From: a virus
DNA: 28,127 nt
IMG/VR virus record: IMGVR_UViG_3300025133_000485
Span: 1 to 28,127 of that record
Reading direction: 5' to 3' (one strand)
Under the pieces are notes generated by a model that saw only the letters and a program-made list of their open reading frames with translations, was not told the DNA's origin and searched no databases. This document shows positions 1 through 25,338 of this stretch, in pieces. The translations under genes were made by a program, and so were the position numbers. Within the stretch, counting starts at the first letter, position 1, and the number at the start of each line of letters is the position of its first letter.

Positions 1-3
1 GCG

Positions 4-34
4 GGCGCCCTGGCATGAGCCGGGGCGCCTTTTT
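4..34 (+). terminator. Rho-independent terminator, cassette 1
   Basis: An 11-bp stem (4-14 with 19-29, one G-U pair) with an ATGA loop is followed directly by five T. It must end transcription of a gene that lies before the window. It is the first of three equivalent hairpins that sit at the start of each repeat cassette. Confidence 0.85.
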
Positions 35-109
35 GCTTTTCCAAAAGAAAGCCCAAAGAGGGGTAGACAGCGGTAGACACTTTGCTATTCTGGAAGCATG
101 AACAACACC
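26..109 (+). repeat. Cassette repeat copy 1 (terminator end, promoter, start codons)
   Basis: This 84-nt stretch is nearly identical to 622-706 and 980-1063. It runs from the 3' arm and T-run of the terminator through an A-rich segment with CTTTT/AAAAG arms, two GGTAGACA-type boxes 10 bp apart, a -10 box and the first four codons (Met-Asn-Asn-Thr) of the next gene. The flanking genes are unrelated, so only the regulatory segment is repeated. Confidence 0.95.
64..91 (+). promoter_or_regulatory. Promoter of cassette 1, leaderless type
   Basis: The -35-like TAGACA (64-69), 16-bp spacer and -10 TATTCT (86-91) lie 6 nt before the ATG at 98, so the expected transcription start falls on or next to the start codon. 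A second TAGACA at 74-79 makes a direct repeat exactly 10 bp away, one helical turn, which could be a regulator site. The GGAAG at 92-96 is too close to the ATG to act as a Shine-Dalgarno. Confidence 0.7.
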
Positions 110-331
110 ACGACCCCCTCCCTCACCGCCGCCGACTTCGCCGCGCACGCCGCGATCTTCACCCCGCTCCCCGGCGTCGCCACCGTCATCGCGCTCGCAA
201 CGGTCGCCTCGGTCCTTTCCGCCTACGCCGGCCTCTTCACCAACTACCGCACCCCGGCGCAGCGTGCGGACGACCTCGACTACTCCCGCCGCCACTTCGG
301 CACCGTCTACTACCACAACCCCAACAACTAG
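98..331 (+). CDS. Small membrane protein, unknown function (77 aa)
   Basis: I do not recognise this protein. Residues about 27-47 form a hydrophobic Ala/Val/Leu/Ile-rich stretch that could cross the membrane once. A polar, Tyr/Arg-containing tail follows. The start at 98 is chosen because the repeat-borne promoter lies just upstream and because the MNNT N-terminus is shared with the genes at 695 and 1052. It is followed by a Shine-Dalgarno-led gene 12 nt downstream, so the two probably form one short operon between two terminators. The position in a promoter-dense array of tiny genes suggests an early phage accessory gene that acts on the host, but that is inference. Confidence 0.75.
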   Translation: MNNTTTPSLTAADFAAHAAIFTPLPGVATVIALATVASVLSAYAGLFTNYRTPAQRADDLDYSRRHFGTVYYHNPNN

Positions 332-343
332 GAGAAAAGAAAG

Positions 344-580
344 ATGCACCTCACCAACCTCGAGATCAACCAACTCATCGCCGCCCTACGCTACGCGGTC
401 GACGATCTGCAGCAACTCGGCTACCTCGTCTCGAGCCTCGACACGGGCAACGACTACCCGACCCAATACACCACCGACGAGACCGACGACAACTCTGGAG
501 ACGCGCCTACGATGCAGGTCGAAGGATGGACGCGGGCCAAGGAAGCGATCGCGCTCCTCGAGGGGATCCAGGCCGACTAG
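344..580 (+). CDS. Small acidic protein, unknown function (78 aa)
   Basis: This is an unrecognised acidic protein. The N-terminal half is predicted helical (about residues 1-32, with heptad-like Leu/Ile). The middle is rich in Asp, Thr and Tyr, and the C-terminus is a second helix. Unlike its neighbours it has no copy of the cassette promoter. It has a Shine-Dalgarno, GGAGA at 331-335, overlapping the stop codon of the gene before, with 8 nt to the ATG. It is therefore the second gene of the cassette 1 transcript, which ends at the hairpin 600-630. Confidence 0.75.
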   Translation: MHLTNLEINQLIAALRYAVDDLQQLGYLVSSLDTGNDYPTQYTTDETDDNSGDAPTMQVEGWTRAKEAIALLEGIQAD

Positions 581-599
581 ATCCAGGCCGGCCACCACT

Positions 600-630
600 G
601 GCGCCCCGGCTTCGGCCGGGGCGCCTTTTT
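600..630 (+). terminator. Rho-independent terminator, cassette 2
   Basis: A perfect 11-bp G+C-rich stem (600-610 with 615-625) is closed by a C(TTCG)G tetraloop and followed by five T. It ends the cassette 1 transcript and abuts the next promoter. Confidence 0.93.
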
Positions 631-706
631 GCTTTTCCAAAAGAAAGCCCAAAGAAGGGTAGACACCGGTAGACGCTTCGCTAAACTTGAAAGCATGAAC
701 AACACC
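622..706 (+). repeat. Cassette repeat copy 2
   Basis: This is the 85-nt second copy of the unit at 26-109. It has diverged most in the promoter: the second box is TAGACG and the -10 is TAAACT. The start codon and next three codons are unchanged. Confidence 0.95.
660..687 (+). promoter_or_regulatory. Promoter of cassette 2, leaderless type
   Basis: TAGACA (660-665), a 16-bp spacer and TAAACT (682-687) stand 7 nt before the ATG at 695. The second box (TAGACG, 670-675) is again 10 bp from the first. Confidence 0.68.
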
Positions 707-940
707 GAGACCACCCGCTTCGCCACTGGCACCACCTACTTCACCCGCTCGATCGGCGATCACAATTGCATCTTCCGCTTTGAGATCGAGCGCCGCACCG
801 CCTCGTCGGTCTGGATCAACGTCGACGGCAAGACCACGCGCCGCAAGATCTCGGTCTACAACGGCGTCGAGATCTTCCAGCCCTTCGGCTCTTACTCCTT
901 CGCCCCAACCATCTCGGCCGACCGTCCGGTCGCCGTCTAA
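695..940 (+). CDS. Small protein, unknown function (81 aa)
   Basis: I do not recognise this protein. After the shared MNNT start it has alternating polar and hydrophobic residues typical of beta strands, with a basic stretch (KTTRRK) near the middle and several aromatic residues. It could be a small beta-sheet fold. An upstream in-frame ATG at 629 is ignored, because translation from it would run through the conserved terminator T-run and promoter. It is the only gene of its cassette: a promoter lies at 660-687 and a terminator at 957-988. Confidence 0.75.
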   Translation: MNNTETTRFATGTTYFTRSIGDHNCIFRFEIERRTASSVWINVDGKTTRRKISVYNGVEIFQPFGSYSFAPTISADRPVAV

Positions 941-956
941 ATCCCCGCCCGCACCA

Positions 957-988
957 GGCGCCCCGGCTTCGGCCGGCGGCGCCTTTTT
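957..988 (+). terminator. Rho-independent terminator, cassette 3
   Basis: The stem 957-967 pairs with 972-983 with one bulged C. It has a TTCG loop and five T. It is the same design as the hairpin at 600-630, with one inserted base in the 3' arm. Confidence 0.9.
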
Positions 989-1063
989 GCTTTTCCAAAA
1001 GAAAGACCAAAGAAGGGTAGACACGGGTAGACACTTTGCTATTCTGGAAGCATGAACAACACC
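980..1063 (+). repeat. Cassette repeat copy 3
   Basis: This 84-nt copy is closer to copy 1 than to copy 2. The sequence from TAGACA through the -10, the GGAAG and the MNNT codons matches copy 1 almost base for base, while the flanking genes do not. Confidence 0.95.
1018..1045 (+). promoter_or_regulatory. Promoter of cassette 3, leaderless type
   Basis: TAGACA (1018-1023), 16 bp, then TATTCT (1040-1045), 6 nt before the ATG at 1052. The second TAGACA is at 1028-1033. Since no terminator with a T-run follows, this promoter may also drive the clamp gene at 1307. Confidence 0.7.
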
Positions 1064-1252
1064 GAGAACACCACCCCCACCGCCGCGCACCTCGCAGCAA
1101 AATCCACCCTCGCAGCCGCCGGCATCGAGACCCTCCGCCCTCGCAACATGGACAGCCTCGACTTCCACGAACTCAGCGTCAACGATATCACCTCGATCAT
1201 CGAGGAAGCATACGCCGCCGGCCTGGAAGCAGCCCGGAAGGCCAACAAGTAA
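1052..1252 (+). CDS. Small helical protein resembling DUF6900 (66 aa)
   Basis: After the MNNT start the protein has a stretch around IETLRPRNMDSLDFHELSV, then an Ile/Glu/Ala helix ending in AYAAGLEAARKAN. From memory this resembles the DUF6900 family of small phage and plasmid proteins (pattern: ETL, R-N-SDSLDFH, then an ALEAAYEAG-like helix). The function of that family is not known to me. The start is fixed by the repeat-borne promoter. The clamp gene follows after 54 nt that hold a hairpin, so the two may be co-transcribed. Confidence 0.75.
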   Translation: MNNTENTTPTAAHLAAKSTLAAAGIETLRPRNMDSLDFHELSVNDITSIIEEAYAAGLEAARKANK

Positions 1253-1261
1253 ACAACATCC

Positions 1262-1283
1262 GGCCCGCCCTCACCGGCGGGCC
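1262..1283 (+). other. Hairpin before the sliding clamp gene
   Basis: A perfect 8-bp stem (GGCCCGCC 1262-1269 with GGCGGGCC 1276-1283) has a 6-nt loop. An A-rich stretch follows, not a T-run, so it is not a standard terminator. It may be an mRNA structure or attenuation point between 1052-1252 and the clamp gene, whose ATG has no clear Shine-Dalgarno. Confidence 0.5.
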
Positions 1284-1306
1284 AAAACAACCAACCAGAA
1301 CCAAGC

Positions 1307-1894
1307 ATGAAGATCCCAAAGAAATACAAACTCGACCAGGCCGTCTCCCGCTACGAGGACGCCCGCTTCGCCACCGAGCACATCCACATCGATACCGACA
1401 ATAAATGCGCGGTCGCCACCGACGGCCGCATCCTGGCGGTGGTGCCCTGCGAGCCCTCGCCAACCGAGGAGATCATCGGCGACCCGGCGCTCGTCCCGGT
1501 CGACGCCTTCAAGGCCGCACGCAGGGCCGCCGGCGGCGGGCAGAAAAACCCGGACCTGGTGCTCATGGTCGACGACCGGGTGACCGTCCAGGACGGTGCC
1601 GGCAAGCGGACCTTCGACCAGGGCAAAGGCGAGTTCCCCAACTACAAGAACGTGATACCTGCAGCCGGCGCCGGCAAAATCGAGCTCGTCATCAACGCCA
1701 ACCTGCTGCAGAAGCTCGCTAACGCCCTCGGGTCCAGCGGCGGCGTCAAACTCGAGATCCAACACGTGGTCGACGACAAGGGCGTCCACAAGCACATCGA
1801 GCGGAATAAGGGCATCCGGGTCACCCCGATCACTCAAGGCACCGAGGGCGAGAACGACGCCTACGGCGTGATCATGCCCATCACCCAGACATGA
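1307..1894 (+). CDS. Two-domain beta sliding clamp-like protein (195 aa)
   Basis: This is probably a DNA polymerase processivity clamp. Three signatures match the second and third domains of bacterial DnaN. ATDGRILA at residues 37-44 corresponds to the VATDGHRLA of domain II. GEFPNYKNVIP at 108-118 corresponds to the RFPDYRRVLP region at the end of domain II. The C-terminal GVIMPI corresponds to the terminal YVVMPMRL. DnaN is about 366 aa with three domains; this protein is 195 aa and has no room for domain I. With two domains per subunit a closed ring would need three copies, as in PCNA; that is inference. It is overlapped by the next gene (ATGA) and presumably works with the family A polymerase at 25761-27818. 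No Shine-Dalgarno is obvious before the ATG. Confidence 0.75.
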   Translation: MKIPKKYKLDQAVSRYEDARFATEHIHIDTDNKCAVATDGRILAVVPCEPSPTEEIIGDPALVPVDAFKAARRAAGGGQKNPDLVLMVDDRVTVQDGAGKRTFDQGKGEFPNYKNVIPAAGAGKIELVINANLLQKLANALGSSGGVKLEIQHVVDDKGVHKHIERNKGIRVTPITQGTEGENDAYGVIMPITQT

Positions 1895-2115
1895 GCAGCG
1901 CCTTCGCCGTCTTCAAGCTCGCCGCAAAGTCGCACCCGTGCGACGACTGCGGCGAGCAGATCGTCAAGGGCGACCGCTACATCAAGGCGAGCCGCAAGCA
2001 CGCAGGCGACTTCGAGCGCCTCAAGTTCTGCCTCTTCTGCGCCTCTCGCAAGCGCGAGGGGCGGCCGTCCTGGCACGACCTCGCTAGACGGGTCCCCGCT
2101 TCCGGCGGGTCATAG
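1891..2115 (+). CDS. Small four-cysteine zinc-binding protein (74 aa)
   Basis: Two CxxC pairs, C17-C20 (CDDC) and C47-C50 (CLFC), are separated by 26 residues and could bind one zinc ion. The rest is rich in Lys and Arg, as in small nucleic-acid-binding zinc ribbons. The start codon overlaps the clamp stop (ATGA), so the two are translationally coupled and may act together in replication. The sequence does not match a family I can name. The stop at 2113-2115 touches the -35 box of the next promoter. Confidence 0.75.
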   Translation: MSSAFAVFKLAAKSHPCDDCGEQIVKGDRYIKASRKHAGDFERLKFCLFCASRKREGRPSWHDLARRVPASGGS

Positions 2116-2144
2116 TTGCCAGTGAGCCCTCTGCCCGTTACCGT
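2116..2144 (+). promoter_or_regulatory. Promoter of the hydrolase gene, leaderless type
   Basis: TTGCCA (2116-2121), a 17-bp spacer and TACCGT (2139-2144) stand 7 nt before the ATG at 2152. The -10 lies inside a perfect palindrome (2134-2150). There is no Shine-Dalgarno between it and the ATG. Confidence 0.6.
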
Positions 2145-2150
2145 AACGGG
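2134..2150. promoter_or_regulatory. Palindromic operator over the -10 box
   Basis: CCCGTTAC C GTAACGGG is a perfect inverted repeat of 8+1+8 bp that covers the -10 box and the expected transcription start. This position is typical of a repressor site. A shorter relative lies at 3081-3094 in the same place relative to the next gene. Confidence 0.6.
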
Positions 2151-2151
2151 C

Positions 2152-3063
2152 ATGGCAATCCTCACCCTCGGCGCATACGGTGGCGCCACGCCCCCAACCG
2201 GCGTCACCAATAAAGAGTGGACCGTCGACATGGACGGCAACACCGACTCGGCCGGGATTGTCAGCTACCCGACAGGGCTGGCGGCGGCCGGCCACGGGAT
2301 CCTCTTCGTGCGCGGCGGGACCACCGGCGCCGCGGCCTCGCTGGCCGACACCGACATCGACGTCCTCGAGGACCTGGTCGAGTATCAGAGCACCGCCTAC
2401 GGCGACCCCGCCGGCGGCCGCACAATCTTCGCGCCGGCCATCCGCGGATGTGCCGCCGACGTATGGACCGACGGCCCGGCGAGCCCTGGCACCGACGAGT
2501 TCGGTGGCGACGACCTGCAGGACCTCGCGCTCTCGTGGGGCATCATGGACGAGATCGGAGTGGCCGCCGGCACGCCCGCCATCCACACCGGCAAGAAGGG
2601 CGCCCTGGCATTCAGCGCCGGCGCCATGCGGCTCCTCAAGGCGCTCAGGGCGCGGACCTTCCAGCCCCGCGCCGTCTGCCTCCGGTCCCCCCTGACCAAC
2701 ATCGCATACCCCGGGCACGTTACATCCGACGCGGTCAGGGCCATGATACCAGGGTGGACCAGCCCTTCCGGCACCGAGCACCAAGACCTTACCACCTACG
2801 AGAAGGCCCAAAAGGTCGCCAGATCGGCGCTCCACTGGTGCGAGGACCTCCCCTACATCCCGTACCTGATAATCCAGGCCGAGGACGACGCGACCATCCG
2901 CGCCGAGGACACCAGGGCCTTCGTTAAATACATGAAGGACCTCGGCCACGACATCGACCTCGCCAACGTCCCGACCGCCGGCCACTCCTTCGCTAGCGCC
3001 AGTCTGGTCAAGGCGTCCAACAATCTCATCAGGGGCTTCTTCAACCGCACCCTCGAGGTATAG
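2152..3063 (+). CDS. Alpha/beta hydrolase (303 aa)
   Basis: This is a probable serine hydrolase of the dienelactone hydrolase/prolyl oligopeptidase-like alpha/beta group. The likely triad is Ser155 in AFSAG (a nucleophile elbow in which the first Gly of GxSxG is Ala), Asp246 in IIQAEDDATI, and His278 in AGHSF. The spacing and order are those of the fold. The N-terminus has no lid, signal peptide or membrane segment. The start at 2152 is preferred over a TTG at 2116 because of the promoter and palindrome. The substrate is unknown; an esterase acting on host surface polymers or a host-metabolism function are both possible. It lies between the replication genes and the head genes and has its own promoter, like a separately acquired moron gene. 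Confidence 0.8.
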   Translation: MAILTLGAYGGATPPTGVTNKEWTVDMDGNTDSAGIVSYPTGLAAAGHGILFVRGGTTGAAASLADTDIDVLEDLVEYQSTAYGDPAGGRTIFAPAIRGCAADVWTDGPASPGTDEFGGDDLQDLALSWGIMDEIGVAAGTPAIHTGKKGALAFSAGAMRLLKALRARTFQPRAVCLRSPLTNIAYPGHVTSDAVRAMIPGWTSPSGTEHQDLTTYEKAQKVARSALHWCEDLPYIPYLIIQAEDDATIRAEDTRAFVKYMKDLGHDIDLANVPTAGHSFASASLVKASNNLIRGFFNRTLEV

Positions 3064-3090
3064 GCACGCCGGGCGTTTATCCGTTACAGT
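3061..3090 (+). promoter_or_regulatory. Promoter of the 88-aa gene, leaderless type
   Basis: TAGGCA (3061-3066), an 18-bp spacer and TACAGT (3085-3090) stand 6 nt before the ATG at 3097. The -35 overlaps the hydrolase stop codon. It is weaker than the cassette promoters, but has the same geometry relative to the start codon. Confidence 0.5.
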
Positions 3091-3094
3091 ACGG
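3081..3094. promoter_or_regulatory. Second copy of the palindromic operator
   Basis: CCGTTAC A GTACGG is an inverted repeat like the one at 2134-2150, with one base missing in the right arm. It again covers the -10 box. The shared half-site CCGT(T)AC suggests that one regulator controls both genes. Confidence 0.5.
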
Positions 3095-3096
3095 AC

Positions 3097-3363
3097 ATGC
3101 CAACACCCGTCCAGGAAGCCGCCCGCTATGCCGCCGCTACCGTCGAGGAGCCCCTCGTCGAGACCGGCGCGACCTATCTGCCCGTCTCGGCCCTCGGTAT
3201 GCAGGCCCGCAAGAAGGCCCTGCGTGAGCTCCGTTGCATCCCCGCCGGGATCGAAGTGGCCGAGCCGGTCGAGGCCGCCAACGAGGCCGACACCCTGGCG
3301 CACGGCGCCGACCCCGAGCCGGCGCCGGCGCCCGAGCCCGGTGACGACGAGACCACCGAATAG
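3097..3363 (+). CDS. Small protein with acidic Pro/Glu tail (88 aa)
   Basis: I do not recognise this protein. Residues 1-60 are mixed and probably helical. The C-terminus is a low-complexity acidic tail of Pro, Ala, Glu and Asp. Its leaderless promoter and the operator-like palindrome set it apart from the packed structural genes after it, yet it lies only 14 nt before the next gene, so its promoter may also start the structural transcript. The position suggests a small head-associated or regulatory protein. Confidence 0.65.
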   Translation: MPTPVQEAARYAAATVEEPLVETGATYLPVSALGMQARKKALRELRCIPAGIEVAEPVEAANEADTLAHGADPEPAPAPEPGDDETTE

Positions 3364-3377
3364 ATAAGGGTGCCAGG

Positions 3378-3992
3378 ATGGCCGAACAAGTACGCCCGAT
3401 GCAGTACCAGGAGGAAGAACGATTCAAGTTCGACCCCTACGCGCACGCGGTGACGGCCATCACCGAGCCGCACCGGATGACCCACGACGGCTTCATGTAC
3501 AACGCGAGCAGCGGCGGAATAGCCGTCGCAGATGGTGCCACGCTCGACGTGATCTTCGCGCTCGCGGCGGGCGTTTTCGCGCATGTTATTCTGGTCGAAT
3601 TCGGGATCGACGACGGGCCCGGCCTCGTCGAGCTTTACGAGAACGTCGTCACAAGCGACGATGGGACGACCGTACTCACCAAGAACCACAACCGCGTCGG
3701 CACCCCGTCCGACCCGGCCACCGTGGTCACCCATACCCCGACAATCACCGACGTGGGCGACGTCCTGCACCAGCGGTACATCCCCGATCCGGGCGGTTCA
3801 GGCAACCAGAGTCTAGGCAACGTCTTCTCGGGCGAGGACCAAGAGTGGGTCCTCGGCGGCGAGAACAAGTACCTCTGGCGCCTCACCAACAACAGCGGTG
3901 GCGCCATCAACGCTGGGGTCCACTTCAACTTCTACGAGATCGGCTACACCGTGAACCACCGCGAGGAGTTCGACAACCTGTCCGGAAGCTAA
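3378..3992 (+). CDS. Putative virion protein, beta-rich (204 aa)
   Basis: The protein is rich in Gly, Thr, Val and aromatic residues with a strand-turn pattern throughout. It has no signal peptide or membrane segment. The motif MTHDGFMYNASSG near residues 34-46 and the overall layout resemble small unnamed proteins coded near portal or capsid genes in other tailed phages, which I recall only as hypothetical structural proteins. A short purine-rich AGG lies just before the ATG. It is followed by the portal gene after 3 nt, so it belongs to the late operon. It could be a head decoration or head-fibre protein; confidence in any specific role is low. Confidence 0.65.
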   Translation: MAEQVRPMQYQEEERFKFDPYAHAVTAITEPHRMTHDGFMYNASSGGIAVADGATLDVIFALAAGVFAHVILVEFGIDDGPGLVELYENVVTSDDGTTVLTKNHNRVGTPSDPATVVTHTPTITDVGDVLHQRYIPDPGGSGNQSLGNVFSGEDQEWVLGGENKYLWRLTNNSGGAINAGVHFNFYEIGYTVNHREEFDNLSGS

Positions 3993-3995
3993 ACC

Positions 3996-5540
3996 ATGCA
4001 AGAGCTAAGAATCCGAAACCAATCGCAGCAGATCTACACCCGCGCCATATCGAGCGCGTGGCGTAATAACATCCAGCTAAACGACCCGAGCCTCTGGCAA
4101 TTCAGAGACCCCGAGGTCGAGGAGAAAATGCTACGCGATGCCGACATCAGGCACGCGGTCGGATACCGCCGGCACCTCATCGCAGGAAAAGACTGGCACA
4201 TAGTCCCTGCCGACGCGGCGAGCGCACGCGCCCCGATGGCGGTCGAGATCGCCACCGAGCTCGTCAAGGGCATCGAGGGGTTCACGCAGTCGCGTATGAA
4301 CCTCGCCCGGGCCTTCTTCTCGGGCGCCCGCTTCGCCCGCATCCACGGCGAGCCCCGAGTCCTCCGCATCGGTGACGGCAAGCCGCGCACCTGGTGGGTG
4401 CCGACCAGGCTCGAGGACACCGACAAGCGCATGTACCGAATCGTCCCGCAAAACGACGACGGCGAGCTCTCCGCGCACTGGGAGCGGTGGGACGTCGGCG
4501 AGGTGACCTTCGCTCCCGAGTCGAAGATGGACGCGCTCCACACCATCAAGCACGTTTACCAAGACGACGAGGCCACGCTCGGTTACGGCTCCGCGCTCCG
4601 CGAGGCCCTCGGCTGGTGCTGGTACGCCAAGGAACACGTATTCCAGGAGAGCCTCGCGGCCGTCGAGAAGTTCGCGCAAGGCATCCTCGTCGCCAAGATT
4701 GACGGCGCACGCGACGCCAAGACCGACCTCCCGAACAACGAGCTCATCGAGGACTGGACCGGAGTGCTCGAGGACCTTCGCGCCCGCCACGTTCTCGTAT
4801 TCGACAAGAGCGACGAGGTCGAGATCCTGCCAGGCGGCGGCGAAGGGTGGCAGACCTTGGAGACGATGCGAGCCGAGCTCTGCTCTAAAGTCTATACCTT
4901 GATTTTAGGCGCCAACCTGACTACCGCGGCAAGCGATGGCGGGAGCTACGCGCTCGCAGAAGTCCAGGAAAACAGCACCGAAGCGCTCATCCAGTTCGAC
5001 CGCGAGACCCTGCAGGAGACCCTAAGCAAGAGCCTCATCGGCTGCCTCTGGTTCCGCAACCACGCGAACCTCGTCGAGCTCGGCATCGACCAGGAGCGCC
5101 CGCTCTTCAACATCACGCAAGAGAAGCGGCAAGATCCCAAAGAGCGAGCCGAGGTCGCAAGCACACTCTCGGCGATGGGCGTCGACCTGCCGCTCAATGA
5201 GGTCCTGGAGCAGACCGGATTCTCAGCACCCGAGGAAGGTGAGCCAATCATCCCGGGCGGTTCAGGGGTTCAGCCCTTCGGCGGCGGGCTCTCGGACTTC
5301 GGGCTAGCGGGTGGCGAAACCGCGGCGCCGGTCGACGTGCAGGACACCGCGCTCAACGGCGCACAAGTGCAAGCCGCGACCGACATCATAGACCGCGTCG
5401 TGAGGGACGTCATGCCCGCAGACACCGCTATCGATATGCTCATCACCATGTTCAACTTACAGCCCGATAAGGCGAGGCGCATGGTGGAAGGTGCCCGTAC
5501 CTTCGAGCCCGTCGAGACCTCAACGGAGTCGACCGTCTAG
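3996..5540 (+). CDS. Portal protein, DUF935/Mu gp29-like (514 aa)
   Basis: This forms the ring at the unique head vertex through which DNA is packaged and ejected. Length and layout match the DUF935 (Mu gp29) family. Residues about 40-130 contain the RHAVGYRRHLIAGKDWHI segment near the N-terminus. The middle has the WCWYAKEH and FGQGILV-like region. Around residues 300-345 the sequence GGSYALAEVQENS is followed by a long helix (the clip/crown side). The C-terminal 100 residues are acidic and variable. It starts 3 nt after the previous stop (TAAACCATG junction) without a good Shine-Dalgarno and is followed 3 nt later by the gpF-like gene, the order found in Mu. Confidence 0.9.
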   Translation: MQELRIRNQSQQIYTRAISSAWRNNIQLNDPSLWQFRDPEVEEKMLRDADIRHAVGYRRHLIAGKDWHIVPADAASARAPMAVEIATELVKGIEGFTQSRMNLARAFFSGARFARIHGEPRVLRIGDGKPRTWWVPTRLEDTDKRMYRIVPQNDDGELSAHWERWDVGEVTFAPESKMDALHTIKHVYQDDEATLGYGSALREALGWCWYAKEHVFQESLAAVEKFAQGILVAKIDGARDAKTDLPNNELIEDWTGVLEDLRARHVLVFDKSDEVEILPGGGEGWQTLETMRAELCSKVYTLILGANLTTAASDGGSYALAEVQENSTEALIQFDRETLQETLSKSLIGCLWFRNHANLVELGIDQERPLFNITQEKRQDPKERAEVASTLSAMGVDLPLNEVLEQTGFSAPEEGEPIIPGGSGVQPFGGGLSDFGLAGGETAAPVDVQDTALNGAQVQAATDIIDRVVRDVMPADTAIDMLITMFNLQPDKARRMVEGARTFEPVETSTESTV

Positions 5541-5543
5541 ACC

Positions 5544-6473
5544 ATGGCCGAGTTCGACGTCAACGGAATCCTTGAGGACATCAACACACGGCTCGCCGAG
5601 GGTTATATCACGGCCTTCCGCGAATACCTGGTCGCGGTCGTCTTGAGAAACGCGCCGCAAACCCGCGACGCCCGACTCAAGCTCGAGGAGGTGGTGCGCG
5701 AGTCGATGGGGGCGGCCGAGGTCCTCGGCGCCTTCTCGACTCTACGCCAAGCGGCGGCGGTACTCGGCGAGGACCGGGTCCACCTTGCAGCGGATCGCGG
5801 TCAACTCCTCGCCTTCGCGGACACCTCGGCGACGAAGATCCTCTCGAGGGTCACCTTCGCCGAGGCGCTCGAGGACCTGGTCGACCGCGTCCCGATGACG
5901 CTACGCCCTGCCGCGGAGAGGGCATCCTTCCGCATCGCCGAGCTCTACAGTGAAGAAGGCGGCGTCATCGCCTTCGCCAAGTCGGCCGAGGACGCCGTCA
6001 CCGCACGCGCCCAAGAGCTCATCGCTAAGGGGGTCCGCGAAGGTATCCCCGAGCGCGACATCGGCCGCACGCTCGCCTTCGGTGTCAACAGGATCCGCGA
6101 GGAGACCGAAGCCTGGACCGAGGGCTACGCCAGGATGGCCTTCCGCACCAACCTCAACGACGCCGTCACGGAAGGCCGGCTCCGACAAGCGCGGGATCCC
6201 GACATCAAGGTCGCGGTCCCGGCCTTCCGCTTCACGGCCGTCGGCGACGGCGACACGCGCCCTAACCACCGGGCCGCCGACGGCGTCATCCTCTCGGTCG
6301 ACAATACGGCATGGCGGTGGCTCCGCTCACCTCTCGGCTACAACTGCAGGTGCAGGCTCGACAACATGAGCCGCCCCGAGCTCCGACGGATGGGCCGCCT
6401 CGACGCCGCCGGCAAGGTCATCGAATCGAAGATCCCGTACAACGCCAAGCCCGACGAGGGGTTCAGGCCGTGA
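5544..6473 (+). CDS. Minor head protein, Mu gpF-like (309 aa)
   Basis: This is a head morphogenesis protein of the Mu gpF/SPP1 gp7 superfamily, which binds the portal region in the procapsid. The diagnostic C-terminal block is present: FRTNLNDAVTEGR at about residues 200-212, then the DTRPNHRAADG segment around 235-245, then WRWLRSPLGYNCRCRL around 256-272. The N-terminal two thirds are helical. It follows the portal gene as in Mu. Its last codons overlap the next gene (GTGA), so those two are coupled. Confidence 0.9.
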   Translation: MAEFDVNGILEDINTRLAEGYITAFREYLVAVVLRNAPQTRDARLKLEEVVRESMGAAEVLGAFSTLRQAAAVLGEDRVHLAADRGQLLAFADTSATKILSRVTFAEALEDLVDRVPMTLRPAAERASFRIAELYSEEGGVIAFAKSAEDAVTARAQELIAKGVREGIPERDIGRTLAFGVNRIREETEAWTEGYARMAFRTNLNDAVTEGRLRQARDPDIKVAVPAFRFTAVGDGDTRPNHRAADGVILSVDNTAWRWLRSPLGYNCRCRLDNMSRPELRRMGRLDAAGKVIESKIPYNAKPDEGFRP

Positions 6474-6691
6474 GGCGACCCCGGTGGGACGACACGCGCC
6501 AAGACCTTCGGCGCCTCGTCTTCAAGGACGGCGCCGCCACCGTCGCACGCCGAATCCACGCCCACCGGGCAACGGTCTACCGGCTCATCAGCGGCGATAC
6601 CAGGCGCCCGAGCGGCCCGCTCAGGGCGGCCGTCGAGGAGGTCGTCGCAGATGCGACAACACCACCTGATACAGTAGGCGAGGAAACATGA
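6470..6691 (+). CDS. Small helix-turn-helix protein in the head operon (73 aa)
   Basis: A GTG start at 6470 overlaps the stop of the gpF-like gene (GTGA), and its own stop overlaps the protease ATG (ATGA). Both overlaps argue for a real gene. Residues about 12-50 read like a DNA-binding helix-turn-helix: LRRLVFKDGAATVARRI, then a HRATVYRLISGDTRRPSG recognition-helix region. The Arg-rich RRPRWDD N-terminus would also suit DNA binding. A regulator between the minor head protein and the protease is unusual. It could regulate late expression, or be a packaging-related DNA-binding protein such as a terminase small subunit. Confidence 0.65.
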   Translation: MRRPRWDDTRQDLRRLVFKDGAATVARRIHAHRATVYRLISGDTRRPSGPLRAAVEEVVADATTPPDTVGEET

Positions 6692-8106
6692 AACACGCCA
6701 CCACGCACCGCGCCCCGGGCTTCAAGGTCACCAAGACCGACGACCACACGGTCTTCCATAGCGTCCCGATCTTCGCAGAATGCGAGCGTGGCGACTTATG
6801 CTTCGACGCTAAATGGATCGCCGGCGCCGTCGCCGAGGCCCAACAGCAGGAGCGCGACGGTTACTTGCCACCGCTCCACACCAGGCACCACGAGCCGGCG
6901 ACGGACCAGACCGACGCCGTCAAGGCGGTCGGCGTCTTCCGCATCACCGACGCGGGTCCGGTCACCTTCAAGGGTAAGCGGATCACGGCCGTCTTCGCCG
7001 ACCTCATCGTCACCGATCCAGGCATGGCCGACGAGCTCGGCCGCATGAAGTACCCTTACCGCTCGGTCGAGATCTTCGACCCGGAAGGCCCGCCGAAGAT
7101 TAACGGCCTGGCGCTCCTCGACCACGAGGCGCCCTACCTCGAGCTCCCGATGCTCTTCGCCGGTGAGGTCGACGACAAGCGCGACCAGGACGCCCTCGCG
7201 CACTCACGCGCCGAGGGCATGATCCCCGACACCGGAGTCGCAGGTGCGACAAGTTTCTCCCTCAACTACTCTCGCAAGTCAGGCGATCCCGTGTTAGGCT
7301 CCGTCCAACACGGCAAGCGAGCCGTACTGCTTTTCAAGTTTCCCGACGAGGACAACATGACCGACGACAACAAACAAAGCACCGACAACCCCGCCAACTT
7401 CGCCGACGATAGCGAGGACAAAGACGAGGACGGTGAGAACATGGAAGGCGGTGAGGGCGGCGGTCTAGACGTCGGCTCAGTCGTCAAGGCCATCGAGTCG
7501 GGCGACATCAGCGTCGCCGACATGGACGCCATCCTCGCAGCCATCCAGGCGCAAGGCGGCGAACCAGCACCCGAGGAGGAAGGGGTCGACGAGCCCGCAC
7601 CTGCTCCCGCACCTGGCGCCGAGATCATGAAAGGCGGCACTGCAGCCGCCAAGCTCTTCGCTCACCAGCAGGGCAAGATCGACGCACTCGAGGCCAAGGA
7701 CCGAGCACGCGATGCAGCTGACAAGCGCACCACCGACGTCGGTGTCGCCATGAAGCGCCTCGATGGCAAGCCGCTAGGCTCTGACCTCGAGCAACGCCTG
7801 ACCAAGTTCCACAACACCGTCGGCGGCAACGCCGAAGCGTTCAAGGAATACGTCGACACGATGGCCCGCTCCGTAGGCGAGCTCCCGTCCGACAACTCTG
7901 GCGCCAACTTCGCTGGCCAGCCTAAGATGCCGAAGGCAGCGATGGCCTACCAGAACCACGGCGGCGAAGCCGTCGACCAGGCCGCGCACTTCTCGCGTGA
8001 GTACCAATCCGGCATCGGTCGGAATATGCGGGCGAGTGAGGAAGCCTACGTCCGCATCAACATGAAGCGCCTCGGCTTCGATATCGAGGAAACCGCAACC
8101 GCCTAA
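6688..8106 (+). CDS. Prohead protease-scaffold, Mu gpI-like (472 aa)
   Basis: The N-terminal ~175 residues look like a head maturation protease of the Mu gpI type (phage I protein): a PPLHTRHHEPAT segment near residues 60-72, GVFRITDAGPV and then YPYRSVEIFD around 122-131. The rest is an acidic low-complexity linker (about 225-320, rich in Asp, Glu, Gly, Pro), then a helical C-terminal region like a scaffold. In Mu the protease and scaffold share the C-terminal part through an internal start; an equivalent start is visible here at 7357. The gene has a GGCGAGGA Shine-Dalgarno and is coupled to the small HTH gene. The decoration and capsid genes follow. Confidence 0.85.
   Translation: MKHATTHRAPGFKVTKTDDHTVFHSVPIFAECERGDLCFDAKWIAGAVAEAQQQERDGYLPPLHTRHHEPATDQTDAVKAVGVFRITDAGPVTFKGKRITAVFADLIVTDPGMADELGRMKYPYRSVEIFDPEGPPKINGLALLDHEAPYLELPMLFAGEVDDKRDQDALAHSRAEGMIPDTGVAGATSFSLNYSRKSGDPVLGSVQHGKRAVLLFKFPDEDNMTDDNKQSTDNPANFADDSEDKDEDGENMEGGEGGGLDVGSVVKAIESGDISVADMDAILAAIQAQGGEPAPEEEGVDEPAPAPAPGAEIMKGGTAAAKLFAHQQGKIDALEAKDRARDAADKRTTDVGVAMKRLDGKPLGSDLEQRLTKFHNTVGGNAEAFKEYVDTMARSVGELPSDNSGANFAGQPKMPKAAMAYQNHGGEAVDQAAHFSREYQSGIGRNMRASEEAYVRINMKRLGFDIEETATA
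7357..8106 (+). CDS. Possible internal-start scaffold protein (249 aa)
   Basis: An in-frame ATG at 7357, residue 224 of the protease gene, is preceded by GAGGA at 7348-7352 with 4 nt spacing. It sits at the junction between the protease domain and the acidic/helical C-terminal region. A product from here (beginning MTDDNKQ) would be a free scaffold, as Mu gpZ is within gpI and lambda Nu3 is within C. The site is visible; its use is inferred from those phages. Confidence 0.4.
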   Translation: MTDDNKQSTDNPANFADDSEDKDEDGENMEGGEGGGLDVGSVVKAIESGDISVADMDAILAAIQAQGGEPAPEEEGVDEPAPAPAPGAEIMKGGTAAAKLFAHQQGKIDALEAKDRARDAADKRTTDVGVAMKRLDGKPLGSDLEQRLTKFHNTVGGNAEAFKEYVDTMARSVGELPSDNSGANFAGQPKMPKAAMAYQNHGGEAVDQAAHFSREYQSGIGRNMRASEEAYVRINMKRLGFDIEETATA

Positions 8107-17782: not shown

Positions 17783-20029
17783 ATGGCCCTCACCAAGCCA
17801 CGCATCACCTACGACGGCGTCGAGCTCTCGGCGTCAGGCTCGGTCGCCTGGAAGTTCACCACCGGCTCACGGCCGTATATGGCCACCTTCTCGGTTTACC
17901 ACCGGGATTGGAACGGTAAGCTCAGGCCGAAAATCGGCCAGTCGGCCGACCTAGTCATCGTCGACGGCCGAGGCACGACCCTCACCGTCCAGAACCTCAC
18001 GCTGCTGCATGAGGTCCCGAGCGCCAAGCCAAAGGAGCGCAGCTTCGTGCTCGCCGACCGGCGCTGGCGGTGGCAATACACGCTCATCAGCCGCGACTAC
18101 AACGTCCCGAAAAAGACCGGCGACCGCACCGCGCAAATCAACGTCCCATTCCCGGGCTTCGTCACGACCGACCAATATGACTACAAGGGATTCTCGCTCG
18201 AGGGTGGGGACACCGTCTGGACCGCCCGAGCAGTACTCGAGGACGTACTGCAGCAGCTTCGCAACGAGGGCGACGGCTTCCCCTACACGGTCGACAGCTT
18301 CCCGATCCAGGAGCAGACCGGCGGCACCCGGAGCTTCACGCTGCAGAACGTGGTCCTGCGCGACCAGGGCGACGTCGCGCTCGCACGCCTACTCGCATAC
18401 ATCCCAGGCGCGACCGTATGGGTCGACGCCTCTGGCATCGTCCGCATCATCAATGGCGCCGATCTCGCCGCGGCGGAAAACTACTTCCAGAGCCTCCCCG
18501 GCGCAACCTGGGACGGCGAGCGAGCGGTCGTCGTCAACCGCAAGGCGCTCAGGCCCCGGAACATCGTCGTCCACTACCAGCGCGAGGTCGAAGTCCTCCT
18601 CGAGTATTCGGACAATTACGGCAGCGGCACGGTGGCGAGCCCGTCCTACTCGCGGCCCTACATCGAGAACGTGATTCAGACGGTCGACGACAAGACCACC
18701 GTCACCGAGTACGACCCGATCCTCAAGCGCCGCATCACCAAGACCGACCTGCCGCCCGGCACATGGGTCGAGTTCAAGGCATGGCTCGCGGCGATGGAAG
18801 CGGACCGCCCGCCCAACTCGGACCCGTGGACCTTCGACACGATCAAGATGCACTGGGTCAAGGGCAACCTCGACGTCGCACTCGGCGCCGGCGGCCTGGA
18901 CCTCGACACCACCGCCAATATCTCGATGAGGATTCAGGCCATCAAGCAGCACTTCCGGCAGAGCTTCCGCATCAACAGGCGGCTCATGGACCGCACGCGA
19001 GACATCCAAAACGTCTCCGCCCTGCTCCTCGACCCGTACACCGGCACCCGCGGCCCCGCCCGCGTATGGGGCCAGGCCACAATCATCCCGTCGGCTAAAG
19101 GGCTCATGGCGAGCCGCTTCAATAAGGCCAACGCTCACTACTACCGCAACGTCGACTACTTCGCACCGACGCAAGGCCAGTTCTCAGGCCGCACCATCGA
19201 GGCACCGCATGGCCCGGCCAAGGTCAACATCGTCGACCGCGACCTCGGGATCTTCCGCCTCGACTGGATCCTCTCGCCATACGGCACCGACCAGAGCTTC
19301 ATCCCGTGCATGCTCGAGGCCGAGGATGGCGAGTTCAAGGTGCCGATACGCGACCTCGCGCAACAAGACGACGAGCCTATGGGGAGCGGCGTGAGGGTCG
19401 AAGGCGGGACGAATTCCATCTTCCTCGCCGACCGCCTTAGCTACCGGGTTCTCCTCACTGTCGTACCAGGCGCACCGAACAACAAGCGGGCCTTCCACCG
19501 CGTGGAGATCTCGGCGTCCGACGTCGAAGCCTTCACCGAGGGCGACTGGCGCATCGGGTCAGGCGAGGGACCGGACCTCGAGGTCTTCGTCGCACCAACC
19601 GAGGCCACGGCACGCTTCGCCTGGCAGGACGACTCTGCAGCCGCGACGACAATCGGCGAGCTCCTCGGCATCGACAAAGACGACCCCGTCAACAGCGGCA
19701 TCGAGGGCACCGTACTCCCCGGATACACCCTGGCCAACGAGGAGCGCGAGCTATCCAGCCACTCTCGATCGGTGGCATCTGAGCTCTACGTCAACTTCGC
19801 CGACAGCATCCAGGGACGGGTCGCCACGGTCGTTCCCGATACCGGCCTCAAGCTCACCGGCAACATGAGCGGCGCCACCGTACAAGTAGCGGCGGCCCCG
19901 TCTGGTAAAGTTTCAGCCATGCACGAGTTCCCCGGCGTACAGAAGCCCATCTCGCGCCTCGCGCTCATGGGCGAGGGCGCCCGCCAAGTCGTGCTCGGAA
20001 TCGTGCGATTCTCAGGAGGTGACTCTTGA
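17783..20029 (+). CDS. Tail hub or baseplate-like protein (748 aa)
   Basis: This large protein lies between the distal-tail-like gene and the fibre. Residues 1-110 form a strand-rich domain (YMATFSVYHRDW, SADLVIVDGRGTTLTVQNLT). Around residues 195-270 the segment ALARLLAYIPGATVWVDASGIVRIING, followed by a long strand with NIVVHYQREVEVLLEY, resembles the hub fold of phage T4 gp27/gpD-type tail proteins. The C-terminal third is beta-rich. No lysozyme or peptidase motif was seen. The gene ends in TTGA overlap with the fibre gene, whose start lies within its last codons, so the two products are coupled and probably contact each other. Confidence 0.6.
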   Translation: MALTKPRITYDGVELSASGSVAWKFTTGSRPYMATFSVYHRDWNGKLRPKIGQSADLVIVDGRGTTLTVQNLTLLHEVPSAKPKERSFVLADRRWRWQYTLISRDYNVPKKTGDRTAQINVPFPGFVTTDQYDYKGFSLEGGDTVWTARAVLEDVLQQLRNEGDGFPYTVDSFPIQEQTGGTRSFTLQNVVLRDQGDVALARLLAYIPGATVWVDASGIVRIINGADLAAAENYFQSLPGATWDGERAVVVNRKALRPRNIVVHYQREVEVLLEYSDNYGSGTVASPSYSRPYIENVIQTVDDKTTVTEYDPILKRRITKTDLPPGTWVEFKAWLAAMEADRPPNSDPWTFDTIKMHWVKGNLDVALGAGGLDLDTTANISMRIQAIKQHFRQSFRINRRLMDRTRDIQNVSALLLDPYTGTRGPARVWGQATIIPSAKGLMASRFNKANAHYYRNVDYFAPTQGQFSGRTIEAPHGPAKVNIVDRDLGIFRLDWILSPYGTDQSFIPCMLEAEDGEFKVPIRDLAQQDDEPMGSGVRVEGGTNSIFLADRLSYRVLLTVVPGAPNNKRAFHRVEISASDVEAFTEGDWRIGSGEGPDLEVFVAPTEATARFAWQDDSAAATTIGELLGIDKDDPVNSGIEGTVLPGYTLANEERELSSHSRSVASELYVNFADSIQGRVATVVPDTGLKLTGNMSGATVQVAAAPSGKVSAMHEFPGVQKPISRLALMGEGARQVVLGIVRFSGGDS
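20014..20022 (+). promoter_or_regulatory. Perfect Shine-Dalgarno before a TTG start
   Basis: AGGAGGTGA at 20014-20022 is fully complementary to the usual 16S rRNA 3' end and lies 3 nt before the TTG at 20026. It sits within the 3' end of the hub gene. It fixes the start of the fibre gene and shows that the host reads a standard Shine-Dalgarno, even though many genes here have none. Confidence 0.85.
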
Positions 20030-23000
20030 GCACAGGATTCACCGACTGGCCTGACCTCGGGATCTTCCCGACGCAGGACACCCAGGACGGCGTCCCGGTC
20101 GGCATGAGAATGACGCTCATCGGCGGCCGCGTCAAAATCCGCCCCGAGCCCGGTGAGAGCGGTGCCACCAAGGTCACCGAGTACGCCCGCGAGCACGGCC
20201 TCGGCACCCTCGGCGACATCCACCCCTGGCTCTTCTGGCAGACCCAAGAGCGCGAGATGCGCGACATGGGGTCATGGTCGATGGCATGGGGCGCGGTCGT
20301 CACCGACGCAGCAGGAGTCCGCTACGGCGGCCCCGCCGGCGTCCAACCTCTCACGGTCAAGGAAGGCCACCAGGTCAACGACCCCCGATACCGGGTCCTC
20401 CTTCCGGCATGGGATAGCGTGCTCCCGTGGCAGCCCGAAGGAATGCTCTCGATGGTCATGCCGTCGACCGACGAGACCGAGCCGGGCTCAGTCATGCTCA
20501 ACGGTGACCGGCGCCTGGTCGCCGCGTGCGCAAGCGGACCAGGTCAAGCCGGCACCACCATCTGCGACATGCAGCCCGACGGCGAGCTCTGCATGGACGG
20601 AAGCCTGACCCCCGGCCTCAACGGAAGGCACGCACGGCTGCAGGGCCTGGTCCGCGTTATCGCCCTGGACCATGGCTCGGCGCCGATGCTCGGCGGATCC
20701 TGGTACAACAGCATCGCGCTCAACTACGGCGTCTCACAGCAGGAAGGCATCCTCGGCTACGGCATGATCTACGGCCGGGCGATTAACGGCGGCGGGCCAA
20801 CGACCGGAAGCACCACCGCGCAACAACCAGCCGGCGCGGGCGGCGGTCAGAACGGCCCCGACCCACCAGGGAGAGACAACAACGGCTTCGCATCAGGCAC
20901 GGGCGGCTCACCAGGCAGCGACGCCCCGGGCGGCTCAAACTCAGGTTACCAGCGATCGGTCGCCGACTTCGGGCAATTCATCTCGAAGGCGCAAGGCGGC
21001 CACGCGGTCGGCTTCATGGCGCACGAGGCGTCAGGCCCTATCGTCTTCGGATGCGGCAAGCACCGCGTCGGGATCGACAAAGACGGCCACCCGATGACGT
21101 CGGCGCACATCTCGACCAACGGCTACTTCTACAAAAACGCGAGCGAGGACGGGCCGCTCTACTTCTCCAACGAGGAGTACCCCGAGGAGCTCGACGAGCA
21201 CGCTAACGAGACAAAGGTCCACCTCTCATGGGATAAGGAAACGAGCCACGCCTTCGTCGGTGGCGCCCGTCGAGGCGTGTGGCGATGGTGGACAACCGTC
21301 CCCTACGTCCGCCCGACCACTGGACGGCCGCCGACCGCCGCCACGCCAAGCACGCCAGGCACGCCGAGTCGGCCGACCACACCGGGCTCACCCGGTGCGC
21401 CCGGCGTGCCGGGCACGCCGTCGACGCCGGGACGACCTACCACCCCAGGGGCGCCTGGCAGACCTGGCAGCCCTACCGGGCCATCCGTGCCAGGGACCCC
21501 GGGCGGGCCCGTCGCGCCCGACGACATCCCGAACCCGGCGAAGCCGAAACCCTACGCCCCTGCGACGCCCAACAACACCGTCGGAAGGCGTCCAGGCCGC
21601 GCCGTAACGCCCGCAAGGCCACGCGGCCCCGTCATGCCGGCCGACATCCCGAAGCCCGCAAAACCGCCTAACGCGCCGCCAGGGCGACCCGTCACCTACC
21701 CGGAAGGGACCACGCGCAACCAGCCGATCGTCCCGGTCGCGCCTGGCAACTCATACTTCATCGGCCGCGGCTTCGACAATCAGAGCTTCAGCGACAACTT
21801 CGACATCAATCCCCCCGACGGGTCGGACTATAACGGCATCAGACCCGCCGGCGTAGTCCAGCAGGTCGGCGGCGCCGCCGGCGGCGGTGAGGACGTCGGG
21901 CTCTTCTCGATCTTCCACCCGCACAGCACGGGCTTCGCGGCGATCGCTCTACGGCCTCAACTCTGGATCAAGGGCGCACCCAACTTCGAGCACAACCCGC
22001 TCCTCGGCTCCGCCATGTATCGCAGCGAGGAGCAGACCAGGCCAACGGTTCTCACGATCCGGGCATGGGGCGCACAGAGCGAGAGCGGTGACTGGAAGTA
22101 CGCTAAAACCCCGGTGTCGTCTCGCGCCCGAGGCGGCACCGCCGACGGCGGCATCCTCGTCGCGCCGGCCGAGTTCGAGATGGAGGACTACCTCGGCATC
22201 AACAGCAACGCCGACACCGACAACCCGACCGCGAGCACCTACGCGATGCTGGCGCCCAACGTCTCGCTCGCCTTCGGCAACCCCGCAACCAGCGGTGGGC
22301 CGACGGTCGGGTCGAAACTCATCTACCAGGAGACGGCAGCCGGCGACCTCATATTCTCGGAAGTCACCGACGTCGCGGGAAGCCTGACCGAGATCATCAA
22401 GGTATCGGTCGACGGCGACGGCGCCGGATACACCGAGCTCGAGGGTACCGGAGCTCTCAAAGTGCCCGGCGGCTCGACCGACGAGCGGCCAACCACGCCG
22501 GCGGCGGCGATGGTCCGCTACAACTCGACCGACAAAGCATTCGAGTATTACGACGGGACAACATGGAACAGCCTGACGCCGGGCGGCGGCGGTGGCGGCG
22601 GAGTTACTTCGGTCAACGGCCACACCGGCGTCGTGGTCCTCGACCCCGACGACCTCAACGACGCATCGACGTCCCACAAGTTCGTCACCTCGGACGACAT
22701 CACCAACCTTAGCAACCTAAGCGGGACCAACACGGGCGACGAGCCGACCGCCACCACCGGCGCCGAAGGTGTCGTCGAGCTCGCAACCACCGCCGAGGCC
22801 GAAGCAGGTAGCGCGACCGACCGCGCATTAACCCCGGCCTCGGTCGCGGGTCTGATGAAGCTCTTGCCCAAGGCGTTCGGATCCTTCGACCCGAAGACCT
22901 CACCCGTCATCAAGGCCAACCACTTCAACCTCGGCGGCACGCTCACCCGCAACGGCACCGGCGACTACACGCTCACCTACGACACCGCCCTCGCCGACGC

Positions 23001-23172
23001 CAACTACACCGTCACCATGAGTTGCTCGGACAACACCGGCACCGCGTTTGCGTGGGGAGTGGCACAGAAAACAACAACAACCTTACGGGTCTTCATCCGT
23101 CTCCCGACAGGCGCGGCAAGCGACGCCGCCGAGCTCGTCCACATCGTAGTCCATCAAAATCTAGCGCCATGA
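20026..23172 (+). CDS. Tail fibre with collagen-like tract (1048 aa)
   Basis: This is the probable receptor-binding fibre. Residues 1-130 form the attachment region. About 430-575 are proline-rich: from 441 to 498 every third residue is Pro (20 in a row), with Gly following 11 of them, a collagen-like X-Pro-Gly register. Glycine is not at every third position, so a triple helix may be interrupted. About residues 853-925 carry a classic fibre motif: a Gly-rich turn, then VTSVNGHTGVVVLDPDDL, then GAEGVVELATTAEAEAG and ALTPASVAGL. A beta-rich C-terminus ends in LVHIVVHQNLAP. The TTG start is supported by the Shine-Dalgarno at 20014-20022. It is coupled to the next gene by an ATGA overlap. Confidence 0.85.
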   Translation: MSTGFTDWPDLGIFPTQDTQDGVPVGMRMTLIGGRVKIRPEPGESGATKVTEYAREHGLGTLGDIHPWLFWQTQEREMRDMGSWSMAWGAVVTDAAGVRYGGPAGVQPLTVKEGHQVNDPRYRVLLPAWDSVLPWQPEGMLSMVMPSTDETEPGSVMLNGDRRLVAACASGPGQAGTTICDMQPDGELCMDGSLTPGLNGRHARLQGLVRVIALDHGSAPMLGGSWYNSIALNYGVSQQEGILGYGMIYGRAINGGGPTTGSTTAQQPAGAGGGQNGPDPPGRDNNGFASGTGGSPGSDAPGGSNSGYQRSVADFGQFISKAQGGHAVGFMAHEASGPIVFGCGKHRVGIDKDGHPMTSAHISTNGYFYKNASEDGPLYFSNEEYPEELDEHANETKVHLSWDKETSHAFVGGARRGVWRWWTTVPYVRPTTGRPPTAATPSTPGTPSRPTTPGSPGAPGVPGTPSTPGRPTTPGAPGRPGSPTGPSVPGTPGGPVAPDDIPNPAKPKPYAPATPNNTVGRRPGRAVTPARPRGPVMPADIPKPAKPPNAPPGRPVTYPEGTTRNQPIVPVAPGNSYFIGRGFDNQSFSDNFDINPPDGSDYNGIRPAGVVQQVGGAAGGGEDVGLFSIFHPHSTGFAAIALRPQLWIKGAPNFEHNPLLGSAMYRSEEQTRPTVLTIRAWGAQSESGDWKYAKTPVSSRARGGTADGGILVAPAEFEMEDYLGINSNADTDNPTASTYAMLAPNVSLAFGNPATSGGPTVGSKLIYQETAAGDLIFSEVTDVAGSLTEIIKVSVDGDGAGYTELEGTGALKVPGGSTDERPTTPAAAMVRYNSTDKAFEYYDGTTWNSLTPGGGGGGGVTSVNGHTGVVVLDPDDLNDASTSHKFVTSDDITNLSNLSGTNTGDEPTATTGAEGVVELATTAEAEAGSATDRALTPASVAGLMKLLPKAFGSFDPKTSPVIKANHFNLGGTLTRNGTGDYTLTYDTALADANYTVTMSCSDNTGTAFAWGVAQKTTTTLRVFIRLPTGAASDAAELVHIVVHQNLAP
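21340..21519 (+). repeat. Collagen-like triplet coding tract (residues 439-498)
   Basis: Twenty consecutive triplets end in Pro; eleven begin with Gly. The coding DNA is C-rich at codon starts (CCN) with 9-nt near-repeats, which could let the tract change length by slippage or recombination. There are 11 X-Pro-Gly sites, the kind of site that collagen prolyl 4-hydroxylase recognises. Confidence 0.85.
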
Positions 23173-24552: not shown

Positions 24553-25128
24553 ATGACGGACCCACTCCCCGAGCGATACCACGCCGCAAGATTCACATAC
24601 TTCGAGGACGTCATGCCTCTCGAGTGGCTCGCATCGGCCGGGGAGTGGCTCCACCACAACAAGGGCTTCTTCCTTCGAGGCGGTGACGAGGACGGCCGCG
24701 ACCGATTCAACTACGAGCTCACCGAGGTCGACGACCTCTTCAAGCCGACCGCCGACCTCAAGGCGGAGATCCTCAAGCACCTCGCCGGCGCCATCGAGAA
24801 GGTCGGGATCCCCGACTTCGACCTCGAGGCCATCGAGTGCCACGCGACGCTCTACCACCACGGGAGCCACTTCGCTCACCACAAGGACCGCGACGACGGC
24901 ACGCGGCGCCTGGCCTTCTGCTTCTACCTGCACACCGAGCCCAAGATGTTCTCGGGCGGTGAGCTCGAGTTCCTAGACGGGACGATGGTCGAGGCGAATC
25001 ACAACCGGCTCGTCATTTTCGACCCTTACCAGCAGCACCGGGTTCGCCGCGTCGAGTGCTGGTCCGCGGACTTCCTCCACGGCCGGTGGGCGATCTCAGG
25101 TTGGATCCACGGCAAGCCGGCCGAATAA
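24553..25128 (+). CDS. Fe(II)/2-oxoglutarate oxygenase, prolyl-4-hydroxylase-like (191 aa)
   Basis: This is a double-stranded beta-helix dioxygenase with the usual P4H-type layout: an HxD iron site (His110, Asp112, in FAHHKDRDD), a distal iron His (His162, in PYQQHRV), and Arg178 (in GRWAISGWIH) to hold 2-oxoglutarate. RLAFCFYLHTEP and GGELEFLDG are the typical strands between the iron ligands. The family uses O2 and 2-oxoglutarate to hydroxylate protein or small-molecule substrates. No signal peptide is present, so it acts in the cytoplasm. It is the last gene of the + strand block, and the fibre encoded 1.4 kb before it has a proline-triplet tract. A role in fibre proline hydroxylation is an inference; nucleobase or lipid substrates are alternatives. 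Confidence 0.85.
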   Translation: MTDPLPERYHAARFTYFEDVMPLEWLASAGEWLHHNKGFFLRGGDEDGRDRFNYELTEVDDLFKPTADLKAEILKHLAGAIEKVGIPDFDLEAIECHATLYHHGSHFAHHKDRDDGTRRLAFCFYLHTEPKMFSGGELEFLDGTMVEANHNRLVIFDPYQQHRVRRVECWSADFLHGRWAISGWIHGKPAE

Positions 25129-25212: not shown

Positions 25213-25338
25213 TCAACCACCGCCGGCGATATCGTCGCCGAAGTCCGCGAGCATCAAACCAGGCATTGCCAAGATACAGAGCGGGAAGCCCCACGCGAGG
25301 CCGACCCAACGGGCGAGGGTGCCGAGCACCAGCCTCAC
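25213..25338 (-). CDS. Tiny membrane protein (41 aa)
   Basis: A GTG start at 25338 overlaps the stop of the HTH gene (GTGA). A GAGGAGGTG Shine-Dalgarno lies inside the HTH gene 5 nt upstream. The protein is mostly one hydrophobic helix (LVLGTLARWVGLAWGFPLCI) followed by a short tail with AMPGLMLADFGDD. I do not recognise it. Its strong ribosome site and tight coupling support it as a real gene. It could be a toxin-like, holin-like or membrane-anchoring partner of the regulator. Confidence 0.55.
   Translation of the reverse strand: MRLVLGTLARWVGLAWGFPLCILAMPGLMLADFGDDIAGGG

Follow-up and report, generated by a model that had tools for sequence, protein, structure and literature searches.

The window analyzed here is a complete IMG/VR record (28,127 bp), and unit counts are confined to it. 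It encodes a Mu-type portal (Portal_Mu), a Mu-like gpT capsid, a Mu F-like head protein, and a DNA polymerase of family A; its phage proteins gave no T4-type match, positions 1 to 8000 gave zero DNA matches among 50,697 phage records, an Rfam search gave zero matches, and a phage collection search gave a single, weak portal match. The phage group to which the window belongs is uncultured and unrelated to T4-type phages. Genome contigs searched for a host with portal and capsid alignments gave zero matches; an actinobacterial host may be indicated by −10 variants (e.g., TAGGAT and TAGACT).

At its left end, the window holds three plus-strand copies of a ~108-nt unit, hairpin included (pairwise identity, 88%, 91%, and 91%), at positions 3 to 109, 600 to 706, and 955 to 1063. 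As originally noted, they are near identical and separated by unrelated genes, and none would be expected by chance: the terminator tail TTGCTTTTCCAAAAGAAAG lies at 33, 629, and 987 (0 expected) and GGGTAGACANSGGTAGAC at 61, 657, and 1015 (0.07 expected), with unit parts found nowhere else in the window. Exact runs common to the copies are at most 41 nt long. Each unit consists, in order, of a hairpin, TTTTT, the tail GCTTTTCCAAAAGAAAG, two GGTAGACA-like sites, a promoter, and an ATG followed by AACAACACC, giving the encoded start MNNT. The hairpins (3 to 30, 600 to 625, and 956 to 982, the last with one bulge) are GC rich and predicted to be strong (−25 to −28 kcal/mol). Promoter hexamers of the form TAGACA-N16-TATTCT (or TAAACT) precede each ATG, with only 9/12 matches to the consensus. 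In unit 1, the −35 box TAGACA (64 to 69) and −10 box TATTCT (86 to 91) stand before an ATG at 98 (6-nt gap); in unit 2, TAGACA (660 to 665) and TAAACT (682 to 687) stand before an ATG at 695 (7-nt gap); and in unit 3, TAGACA (1018 to 1023) and TATTCT (1040 to 1045) stand before an ATG at 1052 (6-nt gap). The paired sites form a direct repeat, GGTAGACA-N2-GGTAGACA, with the sites 10 bp apart, at 62 to 69 and 72 to 79 in unit 1 and at 1016 to 1023 and 1026 to 1033 in unit 3; in unit 2, GGTAGACA (658 to 665) is paired with GGTAGACG (668 to 675). Exact GGTAGACA is restricted to the units within the window. At one mismatch, it occurs 13 times genome-wide versus 11 expected by chance, without excess, which leaves the exact pair as the only informative form.

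The four cargo genes, all on the plus strand, are mutually unrelated; g1 and g4 have a marginal likeness over their first 20 residues (E value, 0.047), and unit-to-unit similarity runs slightly into the genes. Behind unit 1 lies g1 (98 to 331; 77 amino acids [aa], no known family), followed by g2 (344 to 580; 78 aa), which is the second gene on the predicted unit 1 transcript and whose start is preceded by a Shine-Dalgarno-like GGAG and no unit. Unit 1 would thus drive two genes, which corrects the original description. Unit 2 leads g3 (695 to 940; 81 aa, no known family), and unit 3 leads g4 (1052 to 1252; 66 aa), a DUF6900 protein (PF21841; E value, 4.9e-14). Neither g3 nor g4 had a counterpart in the other loci fetched, save the 99.9% identical L004/L007; a DUF6900 search gave zero matches in relatives but also zero in control genomes and so is uninformative. 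A hairpin 3′ of g4 (1262 to 1283, plus strand) has no T-run on that strand and is probably not a terminator toward the next gene, so the unit 3 transcript may continue into the conserved gene “clamp” (1307 to 1894, plus strand) to the right of the array, which has weak matches to phage DNA polymerase processivity factor and RusA-like families. That each transcript ends at the next unit therefore holds for two of the three, g4 being without a T-run terminator.

A second assembly (L004/L007), 99.9% identical to the window and with an array identical in layout, extends the window leftward by 61 bases. Because these bases contain the 3′ part of another gene, at least one gene lies upstream of the first terminator.

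From the −10 spacing, transcription of each unit is predicted to begin with the A of the ATG or beside it and so to give leaderless transcripts, which would account for the presence of the start codon within the repeat. A −10 box 6 to 7 nt before the start, with no Shine-Dalgarno sequence, was found in 3/3 units. Distances from TANNNT to ATG were tabulated for 1,393 distinct ATG contexts from 61 loci of the phage group, over 41 distances. TANNNT occurred 17 times at 6 nt and 14 times at 7 nt (mean, 3.7 per distance), these being the top two of the 41; distance 36 was also high (13 occurrences), so the background of the histogram is noisier than Poisson. Unit-led genes open with A- and C-rich, G- and T-poor codons (A, 0.30; C, 0.47; first ten codons). 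Folding energies over the first 40 nt of these genes are 0 to −5.5 kcal/mol, versus averages of about −7 to −13 in their interiors. Fairly weak 5′ folding is also seen in the remaining genes of the window (mean, −4.8), which makes the CA-rich effect no more than partly specific and supportive. Mycobacteria, Streptomyces, and Deinococcus commonly have leaderless mRNAs, whose translation is enhanced by CA repeats 3′ of the start codon (PMC9031893).

Relatives (~60 loci) were obtained from scans with the capsid protein and a portal alignment, and arrays were found by self-comparison of the loci. The same unit design, in other sequences, was present in L025 (three units), L027 (four, one of the L025 type and three of a variant), L029/L069 (three), L065/L066 (two), and L048 (six), and L008 has one unit; L056 repeats were left out of these counts. 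Promoters in L025, L029/L069, L027, and L065/L066 are of the TTGAC(A/T) type, with the ATG 6 to 7 nt past the −10 box, and unit-led genes of these phages mostly open with N-, S-, and T-rich codons (MSTNAN, METN, and MSTSNNN). A complete terminator-promoter-ATG unit, as first described, was present in all three window units, but in most relatives (L008, L025, L027, L029, and L065/L066) the unit includes no terminator. L048 units are not leaderless, having a ~45-nt leader with a hairpin between the −10 box and the ATG; the leader hairpin GCTGAGGGGGTGGTCCTCTCAGC is perfectly repeated in 6/6 units (L048:1-3309). The end of the L048 contig repeats 94 nt of its start, gene-specific codons included, which indicates a circle of ~44.6 kb with exactly six units. 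Two further candidates were rejected: the L045/L046 repeats, in which an ATG-initiated stretch recurs, seem to be coding sequence and were not counted as units, and L005/L006 have in common with the window only the ~22-nt terminator tail, with no other homology at an E value of ≤1e-5, probably by chance.

Comparison of related phages for different cargo between units, the test originally proposed, was positive in L025 versus L029. These are ~98 to 99% identical over most of their shared length, with 98.7% identity as far as ATGAG in unit 1, where it breaks off, and once more from CCAAGA at the start of unit 3. Between these breakpoints, both within units of ~60 bp, L025 has 1,045 bp with genes of 71 and 136 aa, and L029 has 1,561 bp with genes of 237 and 245 aa that differ from those of L025. 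The L025 units are mosaics, unit 2 having the unit 1 core and the unit 3 end. The L029 layout was seen in two assemblies (L029 and L069; 99.4%); that of L025 comes from one metagenome assembly, in which chimeric joining at the repeat is possible, although the exact runs common to unit copies are short (L025, up to 49 nt; L029, up to 27 nt). The L029 terminase large subunit carries an in-frame LAGLIDADG homing-endonuclease insertion (intein-like; L029:1389-2482), as does that of L014 (L014:1681-4434); the insertion is missing from L025, and such differences are not at units.

Closer to the window is L008 (capsid, 80% identical), whose single unit, without a hairpin, lies directly 3′ of a DNA methylase gene and is followed by a partial g1 homolog (54.5% over 33 aa), a gene unlike g2, and the conserved clamp gene. 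L008 has neither g3 nor g4 nor their units, and it keeps the paired GGTAGACA form with differing flanks. L024 has a unit-like promoter with one TGTAGACA directly before its clamp homolog. The simplest reading of the L024, L008, and window series would be stepwise cassette gain at the promoter, the alternative being loss in L008. As judged from these alignments, the sister lineage L025/L029, whose unit sequences are different, shows recombination at units, and for the window units we infer it from gain or loss relative to L008; the two comparisons support the predicted swapping and gain of small genes at the repeats. In L030, L031, L051, and L058, close relatives differ in, or lack, a 2- to 3-kb block immediately 5′ of the portal, and the block joints have no repeated unit. 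Since relatives without the repeat also exchange genes by the portal, turnover does not depend on units, which appear to supply it with fixed joints.

We consider it probable that the unit is a self-contained expression slot and that recombination between copies exchanges the intervening gene. The hairpin and T-run would stop an incoming transcript, and a predicted sigma-70-type promoter, bearing a pair of GGTAGACA copies at a 10-bp offset, would launch a new one, the second copy possibly serving as the operator of a regulator. With the −10 box ending 6 to 7 nt before the ATG, the new transcript is predicted to be leaderless, beginning at or next to the AUG, so that promoter and start codon must move together as one piece. 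The A/C-rich, weakly structured first codons (MNNT) would be expected to aid leaderless translation. Since the copies are near identical, homologous recombination could insert, delete, or replace the intervening gene with expression intact.

A different, rather unlikely, explanation is that the units are no more than promoters and terminators whose likeness reflects selection for binding a single host or phage regulator, with nearby turnover due to ordinary illegitimate recombination within accessory DNA. Exact GGTAGACA confined to the window units, the pair kept in L008 despite its differing flanks, and gene swapping at the same place in repeat-less relatives all agree with it, as does a small HTH protein encoded at 25335 to 25589 (minus strand), a candidate regulator of the paired GGTAGACA sites. 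Such selection leaves unexplained, however, the near-identity of the terminator tail and first codons, as well as the L025/L029 breakpoints inside units and the mosaic units. Exchange could also be dedicated and integron-like, a phage or host factor recognizing the unit (e.g., the paired GGTAGACA) and promoting crossover, with units of different sequence having evolved independently in several phages of the group; we regard this as a long shot, and if it were true, incoming genes would in every case be inserted downstream of a promoter, start codon, and translation-enhancing leader peptide.

If an entire cassette had recently been duplicated in tandem and its coding part had then diverged, this would account for the weak g1/g4 likeness over 20 residues and for unit similarity running slightly into the genes, but such a history is very improbable: the units are ~90% identical, yet no gene homology is detectable beyond that likeness, and g3 and g4 are unlike in both length and family. 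The joining of reads from different phages at a common repeat during assembly seems more improbable still. The window, L004, and L048 contigs do end at or near a unit, where assemblers would stop; against such an artifact, two assemblies (99.9%) agree on the three-unit array, L029 and L069 agree with each other (99.4%), exact runs between window copies do not exceed 41 nt, and the L048 circle closes through gene-specific sequence.

The expression slot proposed here has parallels in known systems, and, contrary to the original suggestion, the design has precedents in principle in T4-type PeSLs and mycobacteriophage ESAS. The original account cited the start-associated repeats of mycobacteriophages but not PeSLs. 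PeSLs (promoter-early stem-loops; Arbiol 2010; Comeau 2014) are reportedly repeated between small accessory genes of T4-type phages; related phages are said to differ in the genes between the motifs, recombination between motifs was reportedly proposed, and small circular DNAs are reportedly its products. The title of one report, as listed among the references of PMC4503421, describes composite conserved promoter-terminator motifs mediating modular shuffling. As far as that description goes, the three window units resemble PeSLs in their composite of promoter and predicted stem-loop terminator, and gene content changes at motifs in L025 versus L029 (with another unit sequence), with which window versus L008 is consistent. 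Set against the same description, the units of L008, L025, L027, and L029 are without a terminator, the window phage, whose portal, head, and F proteins are of Mu type, is not a T4-type myovirus, and its units, with the −10 box 6 to 7 nt before the ATG, include the start codon and the codons that follow; the L048 units, with their hairpin-bearing leader, look nearest to PeSLs.

Extra genes with their own promoter and terminator, usually standing alone, are known as morons in lambdoid phages; in the window, by contrast, several genes have one repeated signal in common. In cluster K mycobacteriophages, the sections consulted of two reports describe SAS and ESAS as repeats just before the ATGs of nonstructural genes, SAS being a 13-bp ribosome-binding-site-like motif and ESAS having a 17-bp imperfect inverted repeat (PMC3203893, PMC11373665) and containing SigA-like promoters (PMC11373665). 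The 13-bp SAS GGGATAGGAGCCC had 0 matches in the window with up to 2 mismatches. As described in those sections, the ESAS inverted repeat surrounds the promoter, whereas window units have the direct repeat GGTAGACA-N2-GGTAGACA, and the same sections do not describe swapping for ESAS (PMC3203893, PMC11373665). In the haloarchaeal virus HGTV-1, compared by description, most genes along one arm of the genome are preceded by a promoter-like box plus an inverted repeat, and gene shuffling was proposed for it, but it is an archaeal virus with TATA-like boxes (PMC3950731). Cluster O mycobacteriophages have predicted leaderless SigA-promoter mRNAs with +1 at the start codon and deletions ascribed to recombination between 17-bp repeats; there, promoters and repeats are separate elements, whereas in the window they form one unit (PMC4351075). 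The window phage is not of T4 type and its units do not have the SAS/ESAS sequence features, but they work like PeSLs. What is new here is the leaderless, start-codon-carrying cassette form in an unrelated uncultured phage group.

Promoter-cassette shuffling is thereby extended from T4-type phages to an unrelated uncultured group, in which, with leaderless mRNAs, a short repeat can carry all that a new gene needs for expression. The unit marks the start of each accessory gene and so offers a handle for finding accessory phage genes, and L025 versus L029 is a natural experiment on the exchange of such genes.

Elsewhere in the window, a 2OG-Fe(II) oxygenase is encoded at 24553 to 25128 (plus strand), and a long tail-region open reading frame (20026 to 23172), with no match in Pfam, has collagen-like G/P/T repeats near 21300 to 21700. 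Among the relatives, LPD29-domain proteins are encoded behind two unit types (L027:2094-2801 and L029:4211-4924), and another (L048:3493-4005) is the product of a downstream gene that is not directly unit led.
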